From Halogeometricum pallidum JCM 14848 (GTDB lineage Archaea > Halobacteriota > Halobacteria > Halobacteriales > Haloferacaceae), in assembly GCF_000337095.1 (NCBI RefSeq), contig NZ_AOIV01000001.1:1-36988 (forward strand): a DNA stretch of 36,988 bases. The letters run 5' to 3'. Positions 239 to 36,988 of this stretch are shown piece after piece. Made by a program: the position numbers and the translations under genes. The notes under the pieces are model-generated. The model was not told where the DNA came from. It saw only the letters and a program-made list of their open reading frames with translations, and made no database searches. How positions within the stretch are numbered: the first letter of the stretch is position 1; every line of letters begins with the position of its first letter.

Positions 239-1399
239 CTACTCCGCGTCGAGGTGGAGTATCTCGTGTCGTTCGACGGCGAACTCGTGGTCCCACGCCG
301 TGACCGTACGGGTGGGCCACTCGCCCGTCGCTGTCAGCACCTCCGCGCCGTCATCGGCGACGAGGACGGTATCTTCGGATTTCGCGCCCCGTATCGTCGG
401 GTTGTACGCGTACGCCATCGGCGTCTCCACCGGGGCATCCTCGCCGGGCGAGGCGAACCACTCGCGGCCGGCGTAGCCCGCGGCCCCGCCCTGGTGGTGT
501 TCGCGCCACTCCTCGGGGTAGTCGACGTGTTCGTAGGCGGCCATGATGTTGTCGAAGACGCCGTCGGCGGTGCCGTCGAGTCGCGCGACGGCCCGCGTCG
601 CCGCCAGCGCACTCGTCTCCACCTGCTGAGCCTTCCGGTGGCGTTCGGCCAACCACTCCGGCGGGTCGAAGGCGACGGTTCGGGTCGTGCTCGCGTGCAG
701 ACCGCCGCGTTCGGCCGTCACCGACAGCAGAGCGTAGTCGCCCAACTCCGCGTACGTCGGGGTGTAGTGGCGGTACGTCTGCGCCCGTTCGGCGCCGCCG
801 ACGAGGACGACGGGCGCCTCGATGCCCCGCGTCGCCAACGCTATCTTCAGCGCCGCGGCCACCTCGTGTTCGGTGTCCCCCGGTTCGAGTTCGCGCGCGA
901 CCCGTTCGACGGCGTCCGCCGTCTCGCGTCCGAGTTCGCGGTAGCGTTCGACGTCCGTCTCCGAGAGCGGTTGGCGGAGTTCGGCCGCGTCCACCGAGTC
1001 GAGTCCGGGCACCTCGAAATCCGCCGCGCCCTCTCCCTCGGTCTCGCCGGCGACGCCGTCGGCCAGCGACGACTCGTACCAGTTCGTCTGCCGCACGTCG
1101 AACGCCTCGGGCACCTCCTCGTCGGCGAGGCGGTTCGCCTCGATGTTGTCGGTGACGACGACCCACCCGTCCTCGCGGTCGTAGCCCGCGGCGGCGACGC
1201 CCAGGTCAGCGCCCCGACTGACGACATTGCTCCCGCCGGTGAGCCACGAGAAGGAGTTCGGCTCCGCGAACCAGACCGCGTCGAGTTCCTCCCGGTCGAG
1301 ATACTCCTCCAATCGCTCCCGCCGGTCGTCGAGGTGGTCGGTGACGATGTCGCGTTCGCTCCCGGTCGCTTCCGAACCGGAGTCGCCTTCGTCGGTCAT
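239..1399 (-). CDS. M24 (Xaa-Pro peptidase/creatinase-like) family protein, probably without normal metal centre
   Basis: This 386-residue protein has the pita-bread layout of M24 proteins: an N-terminal creatinase-like domain (about 25-130) and a C-terminal domain (about 150-386). Family marks are TTRTV (238-242), HHQGG (301-305) and an NP..G.KSEDT stretch (333-344). Active M24 enzymes bind two metals through D, D, H, E, E. Aligned by eye, the two aspartates correspond to S226 and S237 and the first glutamate to N333. Only the histidine (301 or 302) and E342 remain. A dinuclear peptidase therefore looks unlikely; a non-catalytic role or an altered activity is possible. The N-terminal 24 residues are acidic and low in complexity. 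The ATG at 1399 is the clear start. The gene is alone upstream of the malic enzyme on the same strand. Confidence 0.8.
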   Translation of the reverse strand: MTDEGDSGSEATGSERDIVTDHLDDRRERLEEYLDREELDAVWFAEPNSFSWLTGGSNVVSRGADLGVAAAGYDREDGWVVVTDNIEANRLADEEVPEAFDVRQTNWYESSLADGVAGETEGEGAADFEVPGLDSVDAAELRQPLSETDVERYRELGRETADAVERVARELEPGDTEHEVAAALKIALATRGIEAPVVLVGGAERAQTYRHYTPTYAELGDYALLSVTAERGGLHASTTRTVAFDPPEWLAERHRKAQQVETSALAATRAVARLDGTADGVFDNIMAAYEHVDYPEEWREHHQGGAAGYAGREWFASPGEDAPVETPMAYAYNPTIRGAKSEDTVLVADDGAEVLTATGEWPTRTVTAWDHEFAVERHEILHLDAE

Positions 1400-1494: not shown

Positions 1495-2313
1495 ATGAAC
1501 ACTCGCCTCCGACGCCTCGTGGCACTCACCGTGCCGCTCACGGGCTTTCTGATGGTACTCGGGGTGTACACCGCCGCCGCCGGCGCCGGCCTGACGTGCG
1601 CCGGGCGGTGGCCGTTCTGCGACGGCTTCTTGGGGCTGTTCCCGGCCAACTGGAGCAGCTTCATCGAATGGTTCCACCGACTCGTGGCGATGCTCGTCGG
1701 CTTTCTCATCCTCGGCACCACGATTCAGGCGTGGCGGGCCGGCGTCGACAGTCGCGTCCGTCGGTCACTCGCCCTCGCCACCATCCTCCTTCCCTCGCAG
1801 ATTATCCTCGGCGCGCTGACCGTGACGACGTACGAGTGGGTCGTCCTCTCGGCGCACTTCGTTACGGCGTCGACCATCTACACCGCCGTCGTTCTCGCCT
1901 TCGCGCGGGCGTACGAACCCCCCGCCGCCGGCGAACTCCGCCGCGCCCTCGGGGGTGCCGCCGTCGGCGTCGCCGCCCTCGTCGTCCTCGCGCCCCACGC
2001 GTTCCTCCCGTTCGGCGCGAACCTCCAGGCCGTCTACTACACGCTCGGACTCGTCGCCTACGGCGTTCTCGTCGCCGCCACCGCGTGGCTCGGTTCGGGC
2101 GACGGCGCCGGCCGCGTCCGCCTCCTGACGGGGAGCGCCGCCCTCCTCCTCGTCGCCCTCCTCGTCCTCGGGCGACAGGTGTACAGCGGGGGACTGGAGT
2201 ACGTCTCCGTCGCCGGCACCCTCCTCGTCCTCGGCCTCGTCGCCGCCGCGGCGTACGCCCTCCGCGACCGTCCGACGCGGCAGTCCCGCGGCGTCCCCGG
2301 CGGGAGCGACTGA
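1495..2313 (+). CDS. ctaA: COX15/CtaA-family heme A synthase
   Basis: This is a 272-residue membrane protein with about eight hydrophobic segments. CtaA proteins oxidise the C8 methyl of heme O to give heme A for cytochrome c oxidase. The N-terminal half carries the family marks: a cysteine pair in CAGRWPFC (C35, C42), the EWFHR motif (H61) and H121 in LSAHF. These match the two N-terminal heme-ligand histidines of bacterial CtaA. The C-terminal half, about 170-272, contains no histidine after H168, so the second conserved His pair is absent. The half-size four-helix CtaA of Aeropyrum shows that the N-terminal half can be enough. No other oxidase assembly gene is next to it. The start ATG at 1495 follows the divergent M24-like gene by 95 bp. 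Confidence 0.85.
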   Translation: MNTRLRRLVALTVPLTGFLMVLGVYTAAAGAGLTCAGRWPFCDGFLGLFPANWSSFIEWFHRLVAMLVGFLILGTTIQAWRAGVDSRVRRSLALATILLPSQIILGALTVTTYEWVVLSAHFVTASTIYTAVVLAFARAYEPPAAGELRRALGGAAVGVAALVVLAPHAFLPFGANLQAVYYTLGLVAYGVLVAATAWLGSGDGAGRVRLLTGSAALLLVALLVLGRQVYSGGLEYVSVAGTLLVLGLVAAAAYALRDRPTRQSRGVPGGSD

Positions 2314-4318: not shown

Positions 4319-5046
4319 ACCCCCTCTTGGAGTTCGACGAGGTGAACAAGTACTTCGGCGAGACGCACGTCCTGAAGGACGTCTCGCTCGATATCGAGGA
4401 CCAGGACGTGACCGTCGTCGTCGGCCCCTCCGGGTCCGGAAAGTCGACGCTCCTGCGCTGTGCCAACCGCCTCGAAGAGATTCAGGGCGGGGAGATTCGC
4501 CTCGACGGCGAGTCCATCTCCGACCCGAAGGCCGACATCAACGTCCTCCGCCAGCGCATCGGCATGGTGTTCCAGTCGTTCAACCTCTTCCCGCACAAGA
4601 CGGCCCTGGAGAACGTGACGCTCGCGCCGCGGAAGGTCCGCGGACTCGACGACGACGTCGCCGAGGCGCGCGGCGAGGAACTCCTCGACCGCGTCGGTCT
4701 CAGCGCCCAACTGAACTCCTACCCGAACCAGCTATCCGGGGGCCAACAACAGCGCGTCGCCATCGCCCGCGCGCTGGCGATGGACCCGAAGGTGATGCTG
4801 TTCGACGAGGTGACGAGCGCGCTGGACCCCGAACTGGTGGGGGAGGTGCTCGAAGTGATGCGGACGCTCGCCGACGAGGGGATGACGATGATGGTCGTCA
4901 CCCACGAGATGGGGTTCGCCCGCGAGGTGGGCGACCGAATCGTCCTCATGTCCGACGGTCGCATCGTCGAGACCGGAGAACCGAAGCAGTTCTTCGAGAG
5001 CCCCGAGACCGACCGCGGCAAGCGGTTCCTCTCGAAGATTCTCTAA
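4315..5046 (+). CDS. Amino acid ABC transporter ATP-binding protein (GlnQ type)
   Basis: The 243-residue ATPase has all expected motifs: Walker [10 protein letters not shown] (37-45), Q-loop Q87, signature LSGGQ (140-144), Walker B VMLFDE (160-165), D-loop SALD and H-loop H197. It energises uptake through the permease encoded just upstream. The start is a GTG at 4315 whose last two bases are part of the permease TGA (GTGA overlap). A very strong ribosome binding sequence GGAGGTGA lies at 4301-4308, 6 nt before it. DEVTSALD replaces DEPTSALD, a common variant in polar amino acid ATPases. Confidence 0.95.
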
Positions 5047-5103
5047 ATGCAAAAAGTAATAATCTGCGACACGTTCATCTGCTCGGACGACGATACTTCG
5101 GCT

Positions 5104-5292
5104 ATGAACGCCCTCACTCCCCGCTCGCGCTCCGAGCGGCAGACGAAAACCCTGAGAAAATCCGTCCTCTTCTGTCCCGACTGCGACCGCGCGGCGCCGC
5201 TGGACGACTGGTCGCACACCGACGACGCCGGCGACGAGACCGTCTCGTGTCCCGACTGCGAGGCGTCGCTGGCCGTCGTCCGCATCGCCTGA
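5104..5292 (+). CDS. Small haloarchaeal zinc-ribbon protein
   Basis: A 62-residue protein starting MNALTPRSRSERQTKTLRKS. Two CPDC knuckles (about residues 24-27 and 49-52) should bind one zinc ion. A basic N-terminus precedes an acidic middle. Proteins of this pattern are widespread in Halobacteria and uncharacterised. An in-frame ATG at 5047 would add 19 residues, but it touches the ATPase stop and runs through an AT-rich stretch (about 5055-5065) that looks like the promoter, so 5104 is preferred. It is convergent with the alcohol dehydrogenase, only 18 bp away. Confidence 0.72.
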   Translation: MNALTPRSRSERQTKTLRKSVLFCPDCDRAAPLDDWSHTDDAGDETVSCPDCEASLAVVRIA

Positions 5293-5310
5293 TTTTCCCG
5301 GTCGCGCCGT

Positions 5311-6372
5311 TCAGAACGTCATCACTTCGACGCCGACGGTGTCGTAGTCGCTCATCGCCGCCAGCCGGTCCGGTATCTCGTCGAGCGACACCTCTCGTGT
5401 CACGAGAGCGCCGGGGTCGACGGCGTCCGAGGCGAGCAGCGACAGCAGGTCGTCGGCGCTCGTCGGCGGCATCCCGCGCGCGCCGAGGAACGACACCTCG
5501 TGTCTGGTCATCCAGTCGGTCGGCAGCGACACCTCCCCCTTCTCCTCGTCGGTGGTCAGCCCCACCTGCACGTGCGCCCCGCGGGGTCTGACACAACGGA
5601 CGGAGTTACGACAGGTCTCAGCGACGCCCAACGCGTCGAGCGAGACGTGCGCGCCGCCGTCAGTAACGGCGCGAACCTCCTCGACGGCGTCGGCCTCGGA
5701 AGCGTCCACCAGTACCTCCGCCCCGAGGTCCGCCGCCGCGTCTAAGGCGGACTCCCGCACGTCGACGGCGACGACGCGCGCGCCGAGGACGCGGGCGACC
5801 TGAACGGCCGAGAGGCCGACGCCGCCGCATCCGTGGACGGCCACCCACTCGCCCGCGCCGAGGCCGGCCCGCGCGTTCAGCGCGTTGTAGGCGGTCATGA
5901 ACCGACAGCCGAGGGCGGCCACGTCCCGCGAGTCGACGCTGTCGGGGAGATGGAGGGCGTTGTAGTCGGCCGACGGGAGGTGGACCCGTTCGGCGAACGC
6001 CCCCTGCGCGGACCGCTCGAAGCCGAGGGCGTGCGGGTGGTCGCCGGTGCAGACGTTGCCGTGGCCGGTCCGGCAGTAGCCGCAGGACCCGCAGGCGAGG
6101 TTGAACGGTAGGGCCACGCGGTCGCCCTCCGCGACGGTCCTCACGCGGTCGCCCGCCTCGACGATGCGGCCGGCGGGTTCGTGCCCGAGAATCTGTCCGG
6201 GGTCCACCGCGTCGTCGGCCCACTCGCCGTGGCCCATCCAGGCGTGCCAGTCGCTGCGGCAGATGCCGCAGGCCTCCACCTCGACGACGACCCCTTCGGG
6301 GTCGGCCGTCGGTTCGGGCGCGTCTTCGATGCTCAGCGGTTCGCCGTGTTCGCGGAGGACTGCGGCGCGCAT
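5311..6372 (-). CDS. Zinc-dependent medium-chain alcohol dehydrogenase
   Basis: The 353-residue product belongs to the medium-chain dehydrogenase superfamily, which oxidises alcohols or reduces aldehydes with NAD(P). The GroES-like domain holds catalytic zinc ligands C35 (CGICRSDWHAW), H64-E65 (GHE) and probably C156. Structural zinc cysteines are at C94, C97, C100 and C108. The Rossmann domain has GCGGVG at 181-186, followed by an acidic residue (VAVD) that favours NAD. The ATG at 6372 is chosen because T-rich DNA lies about 25 nt upstream; an upstream ATG at 6396 would start inside that promoter. The substrate is not readable. It lies 74 bp downstream of the F420-type oxidoreductase on the same strand and may be cotranscribed. 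Confidence 0.88.
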   Translation of the reverse strand: MRAAVLREHGEPLSIEDAPEPTADPEGVVVEVEACGICRSDWHAWMGHGEWADDAVDPGQILGHEPAGRIVEAGDRVRTVAEGDRVALPFNLACGSCGYCRTGHGNVCTGDHPHALGFERSAQGAFAERVHLPSADYNALHLPDSVDSRDVAALGCRFMTAYNALNARAGLGAGEWVAVHGCGGVGLSAVQVARVLGARVVAVDVRESALDAAADLGAEVLVDASEADAVEEVRAVTDGGAHVSLDALGVAETCRNSVRCVRPRGAHVQVGLTTDEEKGEVSLPTDWMTRHEVSFLGARGMPPTSADDLLSLLASDAVDPGALVTREVSLDEIPDRLAAMSDYDTVGVEVMTF

Positions 6373-6446
6373 ACGCACGAGTCGGAGGCGATGCAAAAAG
6401 AGACCCCGGTCGGGAAGTGCGACGGAACGAACGCGTTACGCCGCGC

Positions 6447-7394
6447 TCACCGGAACGAGGGGAGGACTTCCTCCTCGTAGAACTCGAAGAACGCCTCCTG
6501 GTCGTCGCCTATCTGGTGGAAGTAGACGTGGTCGTACCCCGCGTCGAGACACTGTTGGATGCTGTCGATGTGCTCCTGCGGGTCGGTGCTGGTGAGGGTC
6601 GACCCCTCCCGGACCGTCTCCTCGGTCACCATCTGACTCGCCTGATCGAAGTGCTTCGGCGTCGGGAGTATCTGATTGAGTTCGCCCGGCAGCGCCGACT
6701 GCCGCCAGTTCTCGTGGGCCGTCTTCACCGCCTCGTCCTCCGAGTCCGCGACGCACATCGTCAACTGCGTCATCTTCGGGCCGTCGCCGTCGAACTCCTC
6801 GACGACGTCCTGCGGGCCGACCGACCAGAAGCCGTCGCCGATGTCGCCCGCCCGCCGCGCGGACTCCTCGCCGAACGCCGAGACGACGAGCGACGGCAGT
6901 TCGTCGGGCAGGGTGTACAGGCGGGCGTTCTCGACGGTGTAGTGCTCGCCGTGGTGGCTCACCTGCTCGCCCGTCCAGAGGCTCTTCATGACGTCGACGG
7001 CCTCCTCGAGCATGTCCATTCGCACGTCGTGTTCGGGCCAGTGCTCGCCCGTGACGTGTTCGTTGAGGGCCTCCCCGGAGCCGACGCCGAAGTAGAACTC
7101 CCGGCCGTCGAGCATCTCCTTGGTCGTCGCCGCCGCCTGCGCGACGTTCACGGGGTGGATGCGGACGGTGGGACAGGTGACGCCGACGCCGAGGTCGATG
7201 TCCTCGGTCGCCGCCGCGACGCCGCCGAGCGTGTTCCAGACGAACGGCGACTCGCCCTGCTCGGCCAGCCACGGGTGGAAGTGGTCGGACGCGGAGAGGA
7301 AGTCGTAACCGCGCGACTCGGCCTCCCGCGCGAGTTCGACCAGTTCGCTCCCGGCGAACTCCTCGCTCGACAGAGTGTATCCGAATTCTGTCAT
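6447..7394 (-). CDS. LLM-class F420-dependent oxidoreductase, glucose-6-phosphate dehydrogenase-like (TIGR03557 type)
   Basis: This 315-residue protein has the luciferase-like TIM-barrel pattern of F420-dependent enzymes. The segment SDHFHPW gives D37, H38 and W42, and GSGEALNE gives E108. These match D39, H40, W44 and E109 of mycobacterial F420-dependent glucose-6-phosphate dehydrogenase by spacing and context. F420 binding is therefore likely. Sugar phosphate as substrate is only inferred, because the wider family includes other alcohol dehydrogenases. The start at 7394 is backed by a TATA element at 7419-7426; a longer reading from 7448 would include that promoter. Clamp-loader gene rfcL lies upstream on the same strand, 105 bp away. 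Confidence 0.85.
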   Translation of the reverse strand: MTEFGYTLSSEEFAGSELVELAREAESRGYDFLSASDHFHPWLAEQGESPFVWNTLGGVAAATEDIDLGVGVTCPTVRIHPVNVAQAAATTKEMLDGREFYFGVGSGEALNEHVTGEHWPEHDVRMDMLEEAVDVMKSLWTGEQVSHHGEHYTVENARLYTLPDELPSLVVSAFGEESARRAGDIGDGFWSVGPQDVVEEFDGDGPKMTQLTMCVADSEDEAVKTAHENWRQSALPGELNQILPTPKHFDQASQMVTEETVREGSTLTSTDPQEHIDSIQQCLDAGYDHVYFHQIGDDQEAFFEFYEEEVLPSFR

Positions 7395-7418
7395 GATTTC
7401 GGCTTCTCGCGGGTGTTC

Positions 7419-7426
7419 GATAAATG
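7419..7426 (-). promoter_or_regulatory. TATA element of the F420 oxidoreductase gene
   Basis: On the minus strand CATTTATC lies 25-32 nt upstream of the ATG at 7394, the spacing of a leaderless promoter. Confidence 0.6.
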
Positions 7427-7499
7427 AAGTGGCAGAACACTCATGCACCGTCTCGCCGACGGCGGCCGGTTCGTCGGGAGGCGGACCCCTGGGCGGCGG

Positions 7500-9002
7500 T
7501 CAGAAGAAGTCGTCCAGTCCCGACTGGTCGTCGTCCTCGGCGTCCGAGTCATCCGCGTCGTCGTCCGCCTCGTCGTCGGCGTCGCGGTCCAACACGTCGC
7601 CGTCGCGTTCCCCGCCGGACCCCTCGTCCGGTCCGTCGCCGCTCTCGTCCTCGCTTTCTCCCTCCGCCGTCGCGTCGTCGGGGACGGACCCGGCGAACGC
7701 GCCGCCGGTGTGAGCTTCCATCTCCACCTCGCGCATCTCCGCGGCGTCCTCGACGATGGACTGCACCTTGTTCGTCGTCTCGCCGCTCCCGGTGACGAAG
7801 GAGACGGCCGACTCGTCCAGGTCGTACCACGCGGCCATGGCGACGGTCACGTCCCGCGGCTTGCAGTGGTGCGTGATGGCCGCGAGGAAGGGGAGCACGT
7901 CGCGCCGGGCGGTGCCCATCGAGAACCCGCCCGACTCGGCTATCTTGCGGACCACGTCGTCGCGCGTCTTGTCCCGGGTCGACCGGTACGGCGCGCCGCC
8001 GTACCGCGTCCACCCGCCGTAGGTTCCGTCCCGCGCGGCGGCGACGCCGGCGGCGACGTTGTCCCCCGCGTACCGCCAGTAGGAGTAGTCCTGCGTGGCC
8101 ATCACGCGGCCCAACCAGACGTCGGCGTTGGCGAGGAACTCGTAGGCGCGGGCGAGTTCCTCGTCGTCGTACACCAGCGAAACCTTGTCCTCGATCCACT
8201 TCACCTGGTTGTCGGGCGTCTCGTCCACCGCGTACGACGACTGGAGGGCCTCGCGAGCCGAATCCTCCTTCAGCACCGAGTCGATGTACTCAAACAGGCC
8301 GATTGCGCTGTCGCGCGCGGCCGTCACGACGTCCTCGACGGCGAGGCGTTCGGTCCCCTCGGCGGCCGCCTGCAGGTCGTTGACCGCCGACCGAAGGTCC
8401 CCGGAGTTCACCTCCGCGATGCGGTCGAGGGCGTCGTCGTCGAACTCGATTCCCTCCTTGCGGAGGATGTCGCGGAGGACGGGGACGATAGAGCGCGCGG
8501 AGACGTCGCGGAACTCTATCTCCCGTGCGGCGTTGCGCAGACCGTTCGACATGTCGTAGTACTCGTTGGCGATGAGGACGATAGGCTGGTTCGACTCCTT
8601 GACGAGGCGGGTGACCGCGCCCGCGCCGCCGCGGTCGTAGTTGCCGTGGATGTTGTCCGCCTCGTCGAGGATGACCAACTGTCGCCCCTCCCGTTCGCCG
8701 TTGGCGTCGCCCGCCGCCGCGCCCGCCAGCGTCGCGTTCTTCGCGGCCCGACCGGCGAAGCGTTCGATGACGTCGGCCGTCCGCTGGTCGGAGGCGTTCA
8801 ACTCGACCGTCTCCCACCCCATGTCGGCGGCGAGAGCGTGCGCGGCGGACGTCTTGCCGACGCCGGGCGCGCCGTGGAGGACGACGGCCTCGCGGTGGTC
8901 GCCCCACGTCTTCCCCCACTCGGCGAACGCGTCGCGGGCCTTGTTGTTCCCGCGGACCTCCGCCAGCGTCGACGGTCGGTACTTTTCCGTCCAGTCTGCC
9001 AT
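7500..9002 (-). CDS. rfcL: Replication factor C large subunit (clamp loader)
   Basis: The 500-residue AAA+ protein loads the sliding clamp PCNA together with the small RFC subunit. It opens MADWTEKYRPSTLAEVRGNN, the standard RFC box. Walker A GAPGVGKT is at 44-51, Walker B with DEAD at 113-116, and NASDQR at about 69-74 is also typical. The C-terminal 80 or so residues are very acidic and low in complexity, as expected in halophiles. The last eight residues QSGLDDFF form a PCNA-interacting PIP box. The start ATG at 9002 follows directly on the promoter region shared with the divergent short-chain dehydrogenase. Confidence 0.96.
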   Translation of the reverse strand: MADWTEKYRPSTLAEVRGNNKARDAFAEWGKTWGDHREAVVLHGAPGVGKTSAAHALAADMGWETVELNASDQRTADVIERFAGRAAKNATLAGAAAGDANGEREGRQLVILDEADNIHGNYDRGGAGAVTRLVKESNQPIVLIANEYYDMSNGLRNAAREIEFRDVSARSIVPVLRDILRKEGIEFDDDALDRIAEVNSGDLRSAVNDLQAAAEGTERLAVEDVVTAARDSAIGLFEYIDSVLKEDSAREALQSSYAVDETPDNQVKWIEDKVSLVYDDEELARAYEFLANADVWLGRVMATQDYSYWRYAGDNVAAGVAAARDGTYGGWTRYGGAPYRSTRDKTRDDVVRKIAESGGFSMGTARRDVLPFLAAITHHCKPRDVTVAMAAWYDLDESAVSFVTGSGETTNKVQSIVEDAAEMREVEMEAHTGGAFAGSVPDDATAEGESEDESGDGPDEGSGGERDGDVLDRDADDEADDDADDSDAEDDDQSGLDDFF

Positions 9003-9206
9003 TATAGGACGGTGGTCGGAGCCGCGTTTAGTGGTTGCGGAGCGTCAGTCCCGGTGTCACCGACCGGGAGTCGGCGGGACGGGTCGTTCCGCGCACTCCT
9101 CGGCCGCCTCTTTCAGTCGAGTCGCGGAGCGAACCCCGAGCCACGTACCGGTATTTCTTTGCGACGGACGACGCGAACACGGTTAACGCGAGTGTGTAAT
9201 CACGAA

Positions 9207-9986
9207 ATGGATGAAACAATCGACGAGCGAACGGCGATAGTCACCGGGTCGAGCAGAGGAATCGGAAAACACGTCGCGAAGCGATTCGCGGCGGACGGCG
9301 CGAACGTCGTGGTCTGCTCGCGGTCGCTGGAGGACTGCGAAGCGGTCGCGGCGGAGATAGAGTCCGACGGCGGGTCGGCCCACGCGGTCGAGGTCGACGT
9401 GAGCGAGAAGCCGTCGGTCGAAAACCTCATCGAGGAGGCCGTCGACCGGTTCGGCCGACTCGACGTGATGGTGAACAACGCCGGCATCAACATCCGCGGC
9501 CCCGCCGAGGACATCACCCCCGAGGAGTGGCAACAGGTCCTCGACGTCAACTTGACCGGCGTCTTCTTCTGCGCGCAGGCGGCCGGCGAACGGATGATAG
9601 AACAAGGCGACGGCGGCAGCATCGTCAACATCTCCAGCATGATGGGAAGCATGGGCCAGCAGGACCGGACGCCCTACAACACGACGAAAGGCGGCGTCAA
9701 CAACCTCACGCGCTGTCTCGCCGTCGAGTGGGCGGAGCACGACATTCAGGTGAACGCCCTCGCGCCGGGGTACATAGAGACCGAGATGGTCGAACAGGCG
9801 CAGGAGGACGCCGACTTCGACAGAGAGGACGTCCAGAACCGAACGCCGCTCGGCCGGTTCGGCACGCTCGAGGAAATCGCGAACTGCGTCTCCTTTCTCG
9901 CCTCGAACGACAACTTCGTCACCGGAGAGGTGCTCACCGCCGACGGCGGCTGGTCGGCCTTCGGGTGGGGCTGTAAGGACGACTGA
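9207..9986 (+). CDS. Short-chain dehydrogenase/reductase (classical SDR)
   Basis: A 259-residue single-domain Rossmann enzyme. Cofactor motif TGSSRGIG is at 13-20, NNAG at 90-93, and the catalytic set S143 or S144, Y157 and K161 is intact (YNTTK). The residues after beta-2, CSRS, suggest NADP rather than NAD; this is an inference. The C-terminal end has the common GEVLTADGGWS motif. FabG and glucose 1-dehydrogenase proteins look alike at this level, so the substrate is open. The ATG at 9207 matches the usual length. It is divergent from rfcL with 204 bp between, and convergent with the ion channel gene 14 bp downstream. Confidence 0.9.
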   Translation: MDETIDERTAIVTGSSRGIGKHVAKRFAADGANVVVCSRSLEDCEAVAAEIESDGGSAHAVEVDVSEKPSVENLIEEAVDRFGRLDVMVNNAGINIRGPAEDITPEEWQQVLDVNLTGVFFCAQAAGERMIEQGDGGSIVNISSMMGSMGQQDRTPYNTTKGGVNNLTRCLAVEWAEHDIQVNALAPGYIETEMVEQAQEDADFDREDVQNRTPLGRFGTLEEIANCVSFLASNDNFVTGEVLTADGGWSAFGWGCKDD

Positions 9987-16071: not shown

Positions 16072-17409
16072 CTACTCTATGTAGTCGTAGCGGCGTTCGT
16101 TCATCCGTCCCCATCCGGTGAAGACGAACTCCGACTCGGGGGGGCTGAACCGGTCGACGTCGGTCTCTTTCTCGTGGTTGTGCACGTCGTGGACGAGTTC
16201 GTACTCGTCGTAGGAGATGTCGTACCGGCGGGCGAGTTGGTCGTCCACCTCGATGTTCTCGACGTGTTCTTCCCAGCCTTCGACGACCGTCTCGGCGTGA
16301 ATCTCCGCCTGCGCGCCGGAGCCGTACGACCCGACGAGCAACCGCTTGCCGGTCAGGTCGTGGCCCGATTCGAGGGCGTCGCGGAGCGCCGCGAGGCGGG
16401 CGATGTGGACCGACCCCGTGTACCAGTTGCCGACGTTGCGCGATATCTCCAGCGTCGGTTCGATGGTCCGACCGTACCACTCCCGGTAGTGGTCGGTCTC
16501 CTTCAGTTCGTCCATGTAGGCGCGGATGGCCTCCTCGTAGTCCTCTCGGGTGTCGTACGCCTCCTCGCGGGGTTGCATCCCGATCTCCTCGGCGAGTTCC
16601 TCCTCGACGTCGGTGTCGCGCGTCATGTGTCGGTAGCCGAGGACGGCCGCCTTCCGGACCATCCCCGGGAACGGCGTGTGGAACGGGATGTACTCGAAGT
16701 CGTCGGGGTGGGTGTCGCCCGAGACGGACTCGTAGTCCTCGAGGGCCTCGCGCATCCGCGCGAGGTACACCTGCACGGAGCGCTTGCCGTCGACGCTCGG
16801 GAACTGCTGGTTCGGCTTCAGGAAGTCCGTCTCGTCGGCGCTGCCGTAGCCCTGCTCGGTCGAGAGTTCGACGATGGAGGGATTTTCGGTGATGAGCATG
16901 GCGACGGCGCCGGCGCCCTGCGTCGCCTCGCCCGGGTCCCCGCGTTCGTACAGGGCGGTGTCGGTGGCGATGACGAGGGCGCCGAGGCCGCGGTTGCGGC
17001 CCGCCTTGATCCAGTTGTAGGCGTCGTCGATGCTCTGGGTGCCGGCGAGGCAGGCGAACTTCCGTTCGCCCTTGTTCGCGTGGTGGAAGTCGCCGTCGTA
17101 CACCTGTTCGAGGCAGCCCGCGATGTACGTCGAGACGGGCTTCGAGTTGTCGAACGCCGACTCGGTGGCCACGTCGATGCGCCCGATGTCGTCGGGCGTC
17201 AGCCCCTTGCGGTCCATCAGGCGCTTGGCCGCGTTCGCCCCCATGGTGACGATGTCCTCGTACACGTCCGGGAACGACGAGGATTCGAGACCGAGCCCCT
17301 TCGTGTACTTCTCGGGGTCCTCGCCCATCGCCGGCGCGAACGTGTTCGGCAGGTCGAGTCTCAGCTTGCCCGTCCATATCTCGATGGCGTCGATGCCGAC
17401 GGCTGTCAT
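16072..17409 (-). CDS. Hydroxymethylglutaryl-CoA synthase
   Basis: The 445-residue thiolase-fold enzyme condenses acetoacetyl-CoA with acetyl-CoA to HMG-CoA, the entry step of the mevalonate pathway for archaeal lipids and carotenoids. The catalytic triad is intact: E83 in ATESAFDNSKP, C120 in FACLAGTQS and H244 in IPFHTPFPG. The length fits haloarchaeal family members. The ATG at 17409 follows directly on a promoter-like region. It stands alone on the minus strand with the pilin-like gene upstream. No other mevalonate pathway gene is in the window. Confidence 0.95.
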   Translation of the reverse strand: MTAVGIDAIEIWTGKLRLDLPNTFAPAMGEDPEKYTKGLGLESSSFPDVYEDIVTMGANAAKRLMDRKGLTPDDIGRIDVATESAFDNSKPVSTYIAGCLEQVYDGDFHHANKGERKFACLAGTQSIDDAYNWIKAGRNRGLGALVIATDTALYERGDPGEATQGAGAVAMLITENPSIVELSTEQGYGSADETDFLKPNQQFPSVDGKRSVQVYLARMREALEDYESVSGDTHPDDFEYIPFHTPFPGMVRKAAVLGYRHMTRDTDVEEELAEEIGMQPREEAYDTREDYEEAIRAYMDELKETDHYREWYGRTIEPTLEISRNVGNWYTGSVHIARLAALRDALESGHDLTGKRLLVGSYGSGAQAEIHAETVVEGWEEHVENIEVDDQLARRYDISYDEYELVHDVHNHEKETDVDRFSPPESEFVFTGWGRMNERRYDYIE

Positions 17410-26679: not shown

Positions 26680-27783
26680 ATGGCCCTTCGCAAACCGCCG
26701 TTGCGCGAGGCTCACGCGGCCCGTGATGCCAAGTTCACGGAGTTCGGTGGGTGGGACATGCCGGTCGAGTTCGACTCGATACGGACAGAGCACGCGGCCG
26801 TCCGCGAATCGGTCGGCATCTTCGACGTCTCGCACATGGGCGAGGTGGAGGTGTCCGGTCCGGACGCGACGACGCTGATGCAGCGACTCACCACGAACGA
26901 CGTGACGCGCCTCAACCCCGGCGACTCGCAGTACGCGATGATAACGAACGAGGAGGGAACGATTCTGGACGACACCGTCGTCTATCGCCTCCCCGACGAA
27001 GCGGGGGAGCGGTACCTGTTCATCCCGAACGCCGGACACGACGCCCAGATGCACGAACGGTGGACGGTCCACCGCGACGAGTGGGGGTTGGACGCGCAGG
27101 TAAACGACGTCACCGAGGAGTGGGCGATGTTCGCCGTGCAGGGTCCCGACGCCGGGGACGCCGTCGCGGCCGCGTCCGACGGGGACGCCGCCGACCTCCC
27201 GAAGTTCGAGGCACACTACGCGGACGTCGTCGGCGCCCGGTCGTGGGTCGCCCGCACCGGATACACCGGCGAGGACGGGTTCGAGATACTCTGTCCGTGG
27301 GACGACGTCGAGACGGTGTGGAACGCGTTCGTCGACGACCACGACTGCACGCCGTGCGGCCTCGGCGCGCGCGACACGCTCCGAATCGAGATGGGATTCC
27401 TGCTCTCCGGGCAGGACTTCGACCCCGAGACGGAGCCTCGCGACCCCTACGAGGCCGGCGTCGGCTTCACGGTGAAACTCGACACGGAGTTCGTCGGCCG
27501 CGACGCCCTCGAAGCCGTCTACGAGGAGGGCGTCGACGAGAAGTTCGTCGGGCTGAAACTGCTCGACCGCGGCGTCGCCCGACACGGTTACGACGTCGTC
27601 GACGACGACGGACACGTCGTCGGCCACGTCACCAGCGGAACGATGAGTCCCACCCTGAACGAACCAATCGCACTCGGCTACGTCCCCGTCGAGCACGCGG
27701 AACCCGGCACGCGCCTCCGCGTCGCCGTCCGGGAGCAGGAAAAGCGCGCGAAGGTAGTCAGCACGCCCTTCTTGGAGGATTAA
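26680..27783 (+). CDS. gcvT: Aminomethyltransferase, glycine cleavage system T protein
   Basis: The 367-residue enzyme takes the aminomethyl group from lipoylated H protein, releases ammonia and passes the methylene group to tetrahydrofolate. Family features are [17 protein letters not shown] near the N-terminus, [27 protein letters not shown]-like sequence ([10 protein letters not shown]) and [13 protein letters not shown], which includes the catalytic-site arginine and aspartate region. Length is standard. It is the first gene of a four-gene cluster; gcvH starts 2 bp after its stop, with the ribosome binding sequence GGAGG inside its 3' end. Confidence 0.95.
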
Positions 27784-36768: not shown

Positions 36769-36988
36769 TTACCTCGCCGAGGCGGCCGACGCGTCCAGAC
36801 GGCCGCTCTCGTCTCCTCCGTCGTCGCCGTTCGCTTCGATATCGTCGCCTTCGCCGCCCTCTCCACCTTCGCCGCCTTCGCCGCCCTCTCCACCTTCGCC
36901 GCCTTCGCCTCCTTCGCCTCCTTCGCCGCCCTCTCCACCTTCGCCGCCTTCGCCGCCCTCTCCACCTTCGCCGCCTTCGCCTCCTTCG
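36769..36988 (-). CDS. C-terminal fragment of a Gly-Gly-Glu repeat protein (cut by right window edge)
   Basis: On the minus strand an open frame enters from the right edge and stops at TAA 36769-36771. It encodes about 15 uninterrupted GGE triplets followed by GDDIEANGDDGGDESGRLDA and SAASAR. The frame has no start in the window, so the gene begins beyond it. The protein's main domain is unknown; such acidic, flexible tails occur on many haloarchaeal proteins. The alternative minus-strand frame here reads KAAKVERAAK repeats, which are basic and improbable in a halophile. Confidence 0.65.
   Translation of the reverse strand, partial: EGGEGGEGGEGGEGGEGGEGGEGGEGGEGGEGGEGGEGGEGGEGGEGDDIEANGDDGGDESGRLDASAASAR
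36847..36988. repeat. 9-bp tandem repeat with a 27-bp higher-order pattern
   Basis: The DNA repeats a 9-bp unit encoding GGE on the minus strand. Codon use is not random: GGT GGA GAG, then GGC GGC GAA twice, recurs as a 27-bp block, with GGA GGC GAA variants in the middle. This suggests growth by duplication of larger blocks. It continues beyond the window. Confidence 0.75.

Follow-up and report, generated by a model that had tools for sequence, protein, structure and literature searches.

One gene of the window, by which the whole analysed stretch of 36,988 nucleotides from Halogeometricum pallidum JCM 14848 is meant, encodes a protein on the M24 (prolidase/creatinase) fold, and this protein and its family are probably (roughly 0.6) active, metal-free, non-peptidase enzymes of a sugar pathway. 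The alignments support the loss of the metal centre in the window protein and its relatives, which contradicts the name of metallopeptidase given to these proteins in databases ('M24 family metallopeptidase' in most of the plasmid records listed). They are considered to be sugar enzymes because the relatives often sit among sugar-breakdown genes and track glucose dehydrogenase across genomes; we infer catalysis as well as the substrate, and the sugars concerned would be those of the catabolism of free pentoses and glucose. The gene and the codons of its former metal site are as follows:

242..1399, minus strand: coding sequence of the metal-less M24-fold protein, 386 aa (stop codon TAG at 239-241)
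767..772, minus strand: codons of R210-H211, nearly invariant (R or K in 105/105 rows, H in 104/105)
722..724, minus strand: codon of Ser226, at the position of the first M24 metal Asp (alignments to prolidases and family rows)
689..691, minus strand: codon of Ser237, at the position of the second M24 metal Asp (alignments to prolidases and family rows)
485..499, minus strand: codons of H301-H302-Q303-G304-G305, with G305 at the ligand His of HxxGHG; invariant where covered
461..466, minus strand: codons of R312-E313, with R312 opposite a His of the canonical proteins L081 and L082
401..403, minus strand: codon of Asn333, at the position of the first metal Glu (EPG motif of L081)
374..382, minus strand: codons of K340-S341-E342, with E342 as the sole ligand position retained

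The open reading frame is real, with an intact frame on the minus strand that codes from 242 to 1399; the contig starts at base 1 of the window, so that nothing can be read beyond that base. Pfam finds Peptidase_M24 (PF00557) in the window protein with 45.2 bits (cut-off 23), while Creatinase_N is barely over its threshold (23 bits, cut-off 22), and PF00557 is also found in 18 of 18 family members tested, which places the family in the M24 superfamily. There are seven M24 matches in the genome, of which the window copy is by far the weakest (47 bits vs 120–243 for the other six). Against the copy of Halogeometricum limi (L001), the one comparison for which YN00 values were obtained, NG86 gives a dN of 0.13 and a dS of 0.54 (dN/dS ~0.23), and a decaying pseudogene is ruled out for the window copy by this ratio, by the 81% identity to L001 and by the intact frame. 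Elsewhere in the window lie an ordinary gene for a haloarchaeal HMG-CoA synthase (16075–17409; NF041302, 889 bits) and a GcvT gene (26680–27783), and one frame of the minus strand at the end of the window (36772–36987) encodes a long stretch of repeated Glu-Gly-Gly.

An AlphaFold2 model from a 46-row alignment (pLDDT 91.2, pTM 0.89) is recognised as the M24 pita-bread fold by both Foldseek and VIA-align, with matches that span 338–340 residues; the comparison yielded aligned ranges. The best VIA match is the prolidase 5cde (Z 29.5, rmsd 2.8, 339 residues aligned), and creatinase 7yto (Z 28.0) and the ectoine hydrolase EutD 6yo9 (Z 27.4) have values so close to it that the fold does not choose among the three.

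In sequence alignments, S226 and S237 stand opposite the first and second ligand Asp of the Pyrococcus furiosus (1pv9) and P. horikoshii (1wy2) prolidases, which we take to be D209 and D220 in P. furiosus numbering, as we take the five aligned positions to be the M24 ligands D, D, H, E and E. The clean canonical comparison is L081, an M24 protein of the same genome that keeps all five ligands, because L082 aligns poorly at 226 and 333. In the alignment to L081, N333 stands opposite the Glu of the EPG motif, whereas HMMER places this Glu in an insertion just before N333 when the comparison is made to 1pv9 and 1wy2. The earlier note had claimed that S226 and S237 replace the metal Asp residues and that N333 replaces the first metal Glu, and it was right on both counts, the former against the two prolidases and the latter against L081, with the insertion placement as a caveat. 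Its list of lost ligands was one short, as the ligand His (the second H of HxxGHG) is replaced by Gly305, and for the same reason HHQGG, which it had listed with TRTV and NP..G.KSEDT as kept, is an altered HxxGHG and not a kept M24 motif, while TR(T)V is indeed retained, as is the ED within KSEDT. The ligand set of the window protein hence reads S, S, G, N, E, with four of the five metal ligands replaced, and differs from the five-ligand set of an M24 metallopeptidase.

These ligand losses are common to the relatives, as the earlier note had proposed to check, and no row that covers the sites keeps all five ligands. Four of the 107 family rows are fragments, derived from the two copies that are broken (L058 and L097), and these account for the gaps in the following counts. 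Position 226 is never Asp (S77, T14, V9, I3, A1, N1) and neither is position 237 (S87, A13, N5), position 305 is Gly in 105/105 and position 342 is Glu in 105/105, and position 333 is Asn in 105 rows and Ser in 1, so that the first four ligand positions are never D, D, H or E in the rows covering them. The serines at 226 and 237 are themselves variable, and the conserved part consists of the other replaced or retained residues: R240, Y289, HHQGG (301–305), R312 and E342 are invariant where covered, with one exception each at H211 and K340. In a set of 60 rows (the window and 59 of 60 genome-contig loci, one of them bacterial), S226 is found in 54 and S237 in 58, and G305, N333 and E342 in 60/60. 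An 18-sequence alignment with bacterial relatives retains 23 invariant columns, namely W52, G55, E87, W107, L199, H211, G233, R240, Y289, H301–G305, R312, P318, N333, P334, G338, K340, E342, T344 and P362. With relatives at 31–81% identity, conservation of this set of replacements is not due to chance, and the active-site region is, judged by its residues, rebuilt rather than lost. The earlier note's reading as a pseudo-enzyme or a different activity is thus supported, and a different activity is favoured over a dead enzyme by the invariant polar residues, by purifying selection (dN 0.13 vs dS 0.54) and by export-signal motifs in some members.

Relatives are found in haloarchaea, Thermus, Deinococcus, Pantoea and cyanobacteria (Nostoc, Gloeothece). 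The search of genome contigs gave 60 relatives, with a single bacterial locus (L060), in whose phylum 1/39 genomes matched at E <= 1e-30, that of L060 itself; the bacterial evidence therefore comes from plasmid records, with a bias to plasmid-borne catabolic copies. With the window query, 44 matches were obtained from these records, of which some are weak and partial and look like different M24 proteins; the Pantoea query and the Thermus query yielded 37 apiece. The Pantoea DNA query in distant mode had no match in E. coli. The haloarchaeal members group together in the tree, as a single clade that takes up 93 of its 103 rows (99/100), and the branching order of the bacteria is unsure, as the tree tool warns of their long branches. 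Within the haloarchaeal clade, an 11-row clade (98/93) comprises L056, L080 and nine of ten plasmid copies linked to an arabinofuranosidase (see below); the tenth, L097, is outside the tree because it is in pieces. The copy at ~6775–8100 of L097 (Haladaptatus salinisoli plasmid unnamed3) consists of two separate open frames, as does that at ~5589–6990 of L058 (MAG QS_6_71_20), so both look broken or mis-sequenced. Twin-arginine motifs were recognised by eye in four members of a five-row clade (L047, L050, L051, L052, L054): L047, L050, L051 and L052 have DRRTYL or DRRTFL and then a hydrophobic stretch, N-terminal to the metal-less M24 domain. The bacterial copy L060 has a lipobox-like start, also by eye. 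Exported versions of the family thus seem to exist, and the members with Tat- or lipobox-like starts suggest an enzyme that acts on a small compound outside the cytoplasm. In the passages returned by a literature search, no description or characterisation of the family was found; these included passages of PMC5292009, PMC8551123, PMC9795676 and PMC4000134, the last of which deals with an M28-like protein and was set aside as not relevant. Passages on T. brockianus name xylF, xylH, xylR, xylA and xylB, and do not name the M24 gene.

All three Thermus loci read (3/3) hold xylF, a permease, an ATPase, a ROK regulator, xylA, xylB, the metal-less M24 gene and a Gfo/Idh gene, with an annotated SDR after Gfo/Idh in 2/3. 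On haloarchaeal plasmids, an annotated arabinofuranosidase lies within 8 kb in 10/11 loci, several loci have sugar ABC transporter genes and some have FAH, mandelate-racemase-type, XacR or IclR genes, the eleventh locus (L070) being of the ctaA type; the ten arabinofuranosidase-linked copies are related (nine in one clade) and therefore do not represent ten independent events. The two Pantoea loci read (2/2) consist of an MFS transporter, a GMC oxidoreductase, the metal-less M24 gene and an SDR, and the MFS protein of L064 scores above the cut-off of the RbtT/DalT/CsbX transporter model. An aldehyde dehydrogenase gene overlaps the metal-less M24 gene in Deinococcus, where sugar ABC genes and an L-fucose isomerase gene also lie close by, and malQ overlaps it in Nostoc, while in Gloeothece a glucan glucosidase gene lies ~2 kb off on one side and CRISPR genes lie on the other. 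The copy L050, one of those with a Tat motif, is adjoined by GH43 and SMP-30 genes. Haloarcula orthologues have an alpha-amylase-family hydrolase ~0.1 kb downstream on the same strand (9/9), which, as typed on L021 only, belongs to PF00128 and passes a phosphotrehalase model of subfamily, not equivalog, rank. In L021, the metal-less M24 gene also has a nucleoside hydrolase gene upstream, and the second gene after it is of the creatininase family; these four co-directional genes (4896–9716) are an unusual mix and possibly form one transcription unit. No sugar gene was recognised by eye at the Halorubrum (L028) and Salinarchaeum (L040) loci.

Gene order varies around the chromosomal copies, and the neighbours in the window itself are not sugar genes, comprising an amino-acid-type ABC transporter (by eye) and the following gene, provisionally named CtaA-like:

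1495..2313, plus strand: ctaA-like gene, divergent neighbour of the metal-less M24 gene (37% identical to the annotated neighbour in L070; no NCBIfam match at E 1e-20)

Within 600 bp of the metal-less M24 gene, 27/79 loci from several haloarchaeal families have a ctaA-like gene in divergent orientation, a pairing with no obvious reason for its retention, and a malic enzyme gene lies downstream of window-gene orthologues in 22/79 loci, within 600 bp in 11 of them. The ctaA-like gene and the malic enzyme were considered as guides to the substrate, and they suggest none.

The family is present in 43/59 genomes of the window's order (27 genera). A strong match to the glucose dehydrogenase domain Glu_dehyd_C is found in 39/43 genomes with the family vs 4/16 without it (Fisher p 2e-6), where strong means E <= 1e-80, a threshold set after the bimodal scores had been seen, with one partial match counted as absent. 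Counted by genus, the table by which alone kinship was handled in these tests, the association is 17/18 vs 2/9 (p 3e-4). Genomes with the family are larger (median 3.6 Mb vs 2.75 Mb), and within the range of 2.7–3.3 Mb the association with glucose dehydrogenase is 14/15 vs 3/10 (p 0.002). As controls in the same 59 genomes, urease (11/43 vs 4/16) and rhodopsin (24/43 vs 9/16) both give p = 1. Four genomes with the family lack a strong glucose dehydrogenase match and four without it have one, hence the metal-less M24 protein is not obligatory for glucose dehydrogenase.

As the specific reaction, we tentatively propose, from gene context and by analogy, that of a mutarotase (aldose 1-epimerase). 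A pyranose or furanose would be bound in the former metal pocket by His, Glu, Lys and Arg residues that vary little or not at all in the family, and these would shuttle protons between O1 of the sugar and its ring oxygen, so that the ring opens and closes; mutarotation would supply dehydrogenases or isomerases with the right anomer of glycosidase products and imported sugars. In gal operons galM is present, and a mutarotase gene is part of the xyl cluster of Lactococcus. We know of no mutarotase with the M24 fold. GalM (PF01263) was found in 0/196 genomes of the window's phylum by a search that was positive in 10/14 control genomes, and RbsD/FucU (PF05025) in 0/59 genomes of the order by one that was positive in 5/14; as GalM is also absent from genomes without the metal-less M24 gene, its absence alone proves nothing. 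The wider proposal, likewise put forward with reserve, is that dismantling of the metal site turned a metallopeptidase fold into a sugar mutarotase (or an enzyme of sugar lactones) of a new class. It may be the main mutarotase in Thermus xylose operons as well as in those haloarchaea that use sugars, a group in which the GalM search was negative, and some haloarchaea may export it.

The main rival to a mutarotase is a sugar lactonase, unlikely in our judgement, which would hydrolyse without metal the aldono- or pentonolactones made by neighbouring sugar dehydrogenases, with His and Glu activating water in the manner of creatinase and EutD, M24 hydrolases that are metal-free and whose existence supports this idea. 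Dehydrogenases (Gfo/Idh, SDR, GMC, AKR) are indeed frequent neighbours, glucose dehydrogenase makes a lactone, and SMP-30 is present in only 10/59 genomes of the order, strongly in six of them (6/43 with the family vs 0/16 without, p 0.18). However, SMP-30 is present in the window genome, some of the same clusters already contain an SMP-30 or MBL-fold gene (L068, L092, L050), and pentonolactonases characterised from Haloferax and other organisms fall in SMP30 according to passages of PMC9795676. The mutarotase is favoured because of these lactonase-type genes in some clusters, because the xylA-xylB and malQ contexts yield no lactone, so that no lactonase is needed there, and because a sugar dehydrogenase, a GDH, is reported to bind the beta-anomer of glucose or xylose (passages of PMC9795676). 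Mutarotase and lactonase steps can both be overlooked in pathway studies, as both reactions also run spontaneously.

A non-catalytic pseudo-enzyme, a binding or regulatory protein like EBP1 or Spt16, would suit the loss of the metal ligands and has precedents on the M24 fold, with Spt16 among the fold matches of the window model and LmaPA2G4 in the literature; yet the polar residues that never vary (H, R, E and Q) or hardly do (N and K) are concentrated in the motifs of the former active site, and the Tat- or lipobox-like starts of some copies and the catabolic-operon context better suit an enzyme, which makes this quite unlikely. Very unlikely is an amidinohydrolase or amidase of the creatinase or EutD kind that acts on a small nitrogen compound: the close fold scores of these metal-free relatives, the creatininase-family gene of Haloarcula L021 and the amino-acid-type ABC transporter near the window copy fit it, and it is countered by the recurring sugar-gene neighbours, by the co-occurrence with glucose dehydrogenase and by the family profile, whose 13 PDB sequence matches (E <= 1e-5) include prolidases but neither creatinase nor EutD. 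That the protein is still a metallopeptidase, with the metal held by other residues, appears extremely improbable, since four of five ligands are replaced in the rows covering the sites and the genome has six other M24 genes, among them L081 with all five ligands; on its side are the database label, Glu342 and the presence of several His residues.

Should these proteins indeed be sugar enzymes, they would supply a step that has gone unnoticed in Thermus xylose operons and in the breakdown of glucose and pentoses by haloarchaea. Like creatinase and ectoine hydrolase, they would then clearly exemplify how the fold of a metal-dependent peptidase can be turned into a small-molecule enzyme that needs no metal. 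Among known systems, the archaeal Xaa-Pro dipeptidase or prolidase (1pv9, 1wy2; MEROPS M24) shares with the window protein the two-domain pita-bread fold and the TR(T), ED and P-G motifs, and gives the best PDB sequence matches of the family profile (1pv9, E 5e-14). In contrast to prolidase, the window protein has four of five ligands replaced, HHQGG for HxxGHG and a shorter N333–K340 loop, its relatives lie in sugar-gene contexts, and it scores 30.6 bits with the archaeal PepQ dipeptidase model NF040821 against a curated 630. Creatinase (1chm, 1kp0, 7yto; Z 27.8–28.0) is metal-free on the same M24 fold, but differs in gene context and falls outside the profile matches at E <= 1e-5. Ectoine hydrolase EutD/DoeA (6twj, 6twk, 6yo9; Z up to 27.4) is likewise a metal-free small-molecule hydrolase derived from M24, but no ectoine-annotated gene occurs in 19 plasmid loci of the family, and the NCBIfam DoeA model NF038259 gives 14.3 bits (cut-off 575). 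GalM belongs to a different family, and neither its model PF01263 nor that of SMP-30 gluconolactonase (PF08450) matches the window protein up to E 1 in Pfam; what GalM would have in common with it is only the proposed reaction and the role in the operon. With creatinase and EutD, the window family shares the trait of an M24 fold that has lost its metal ligands.
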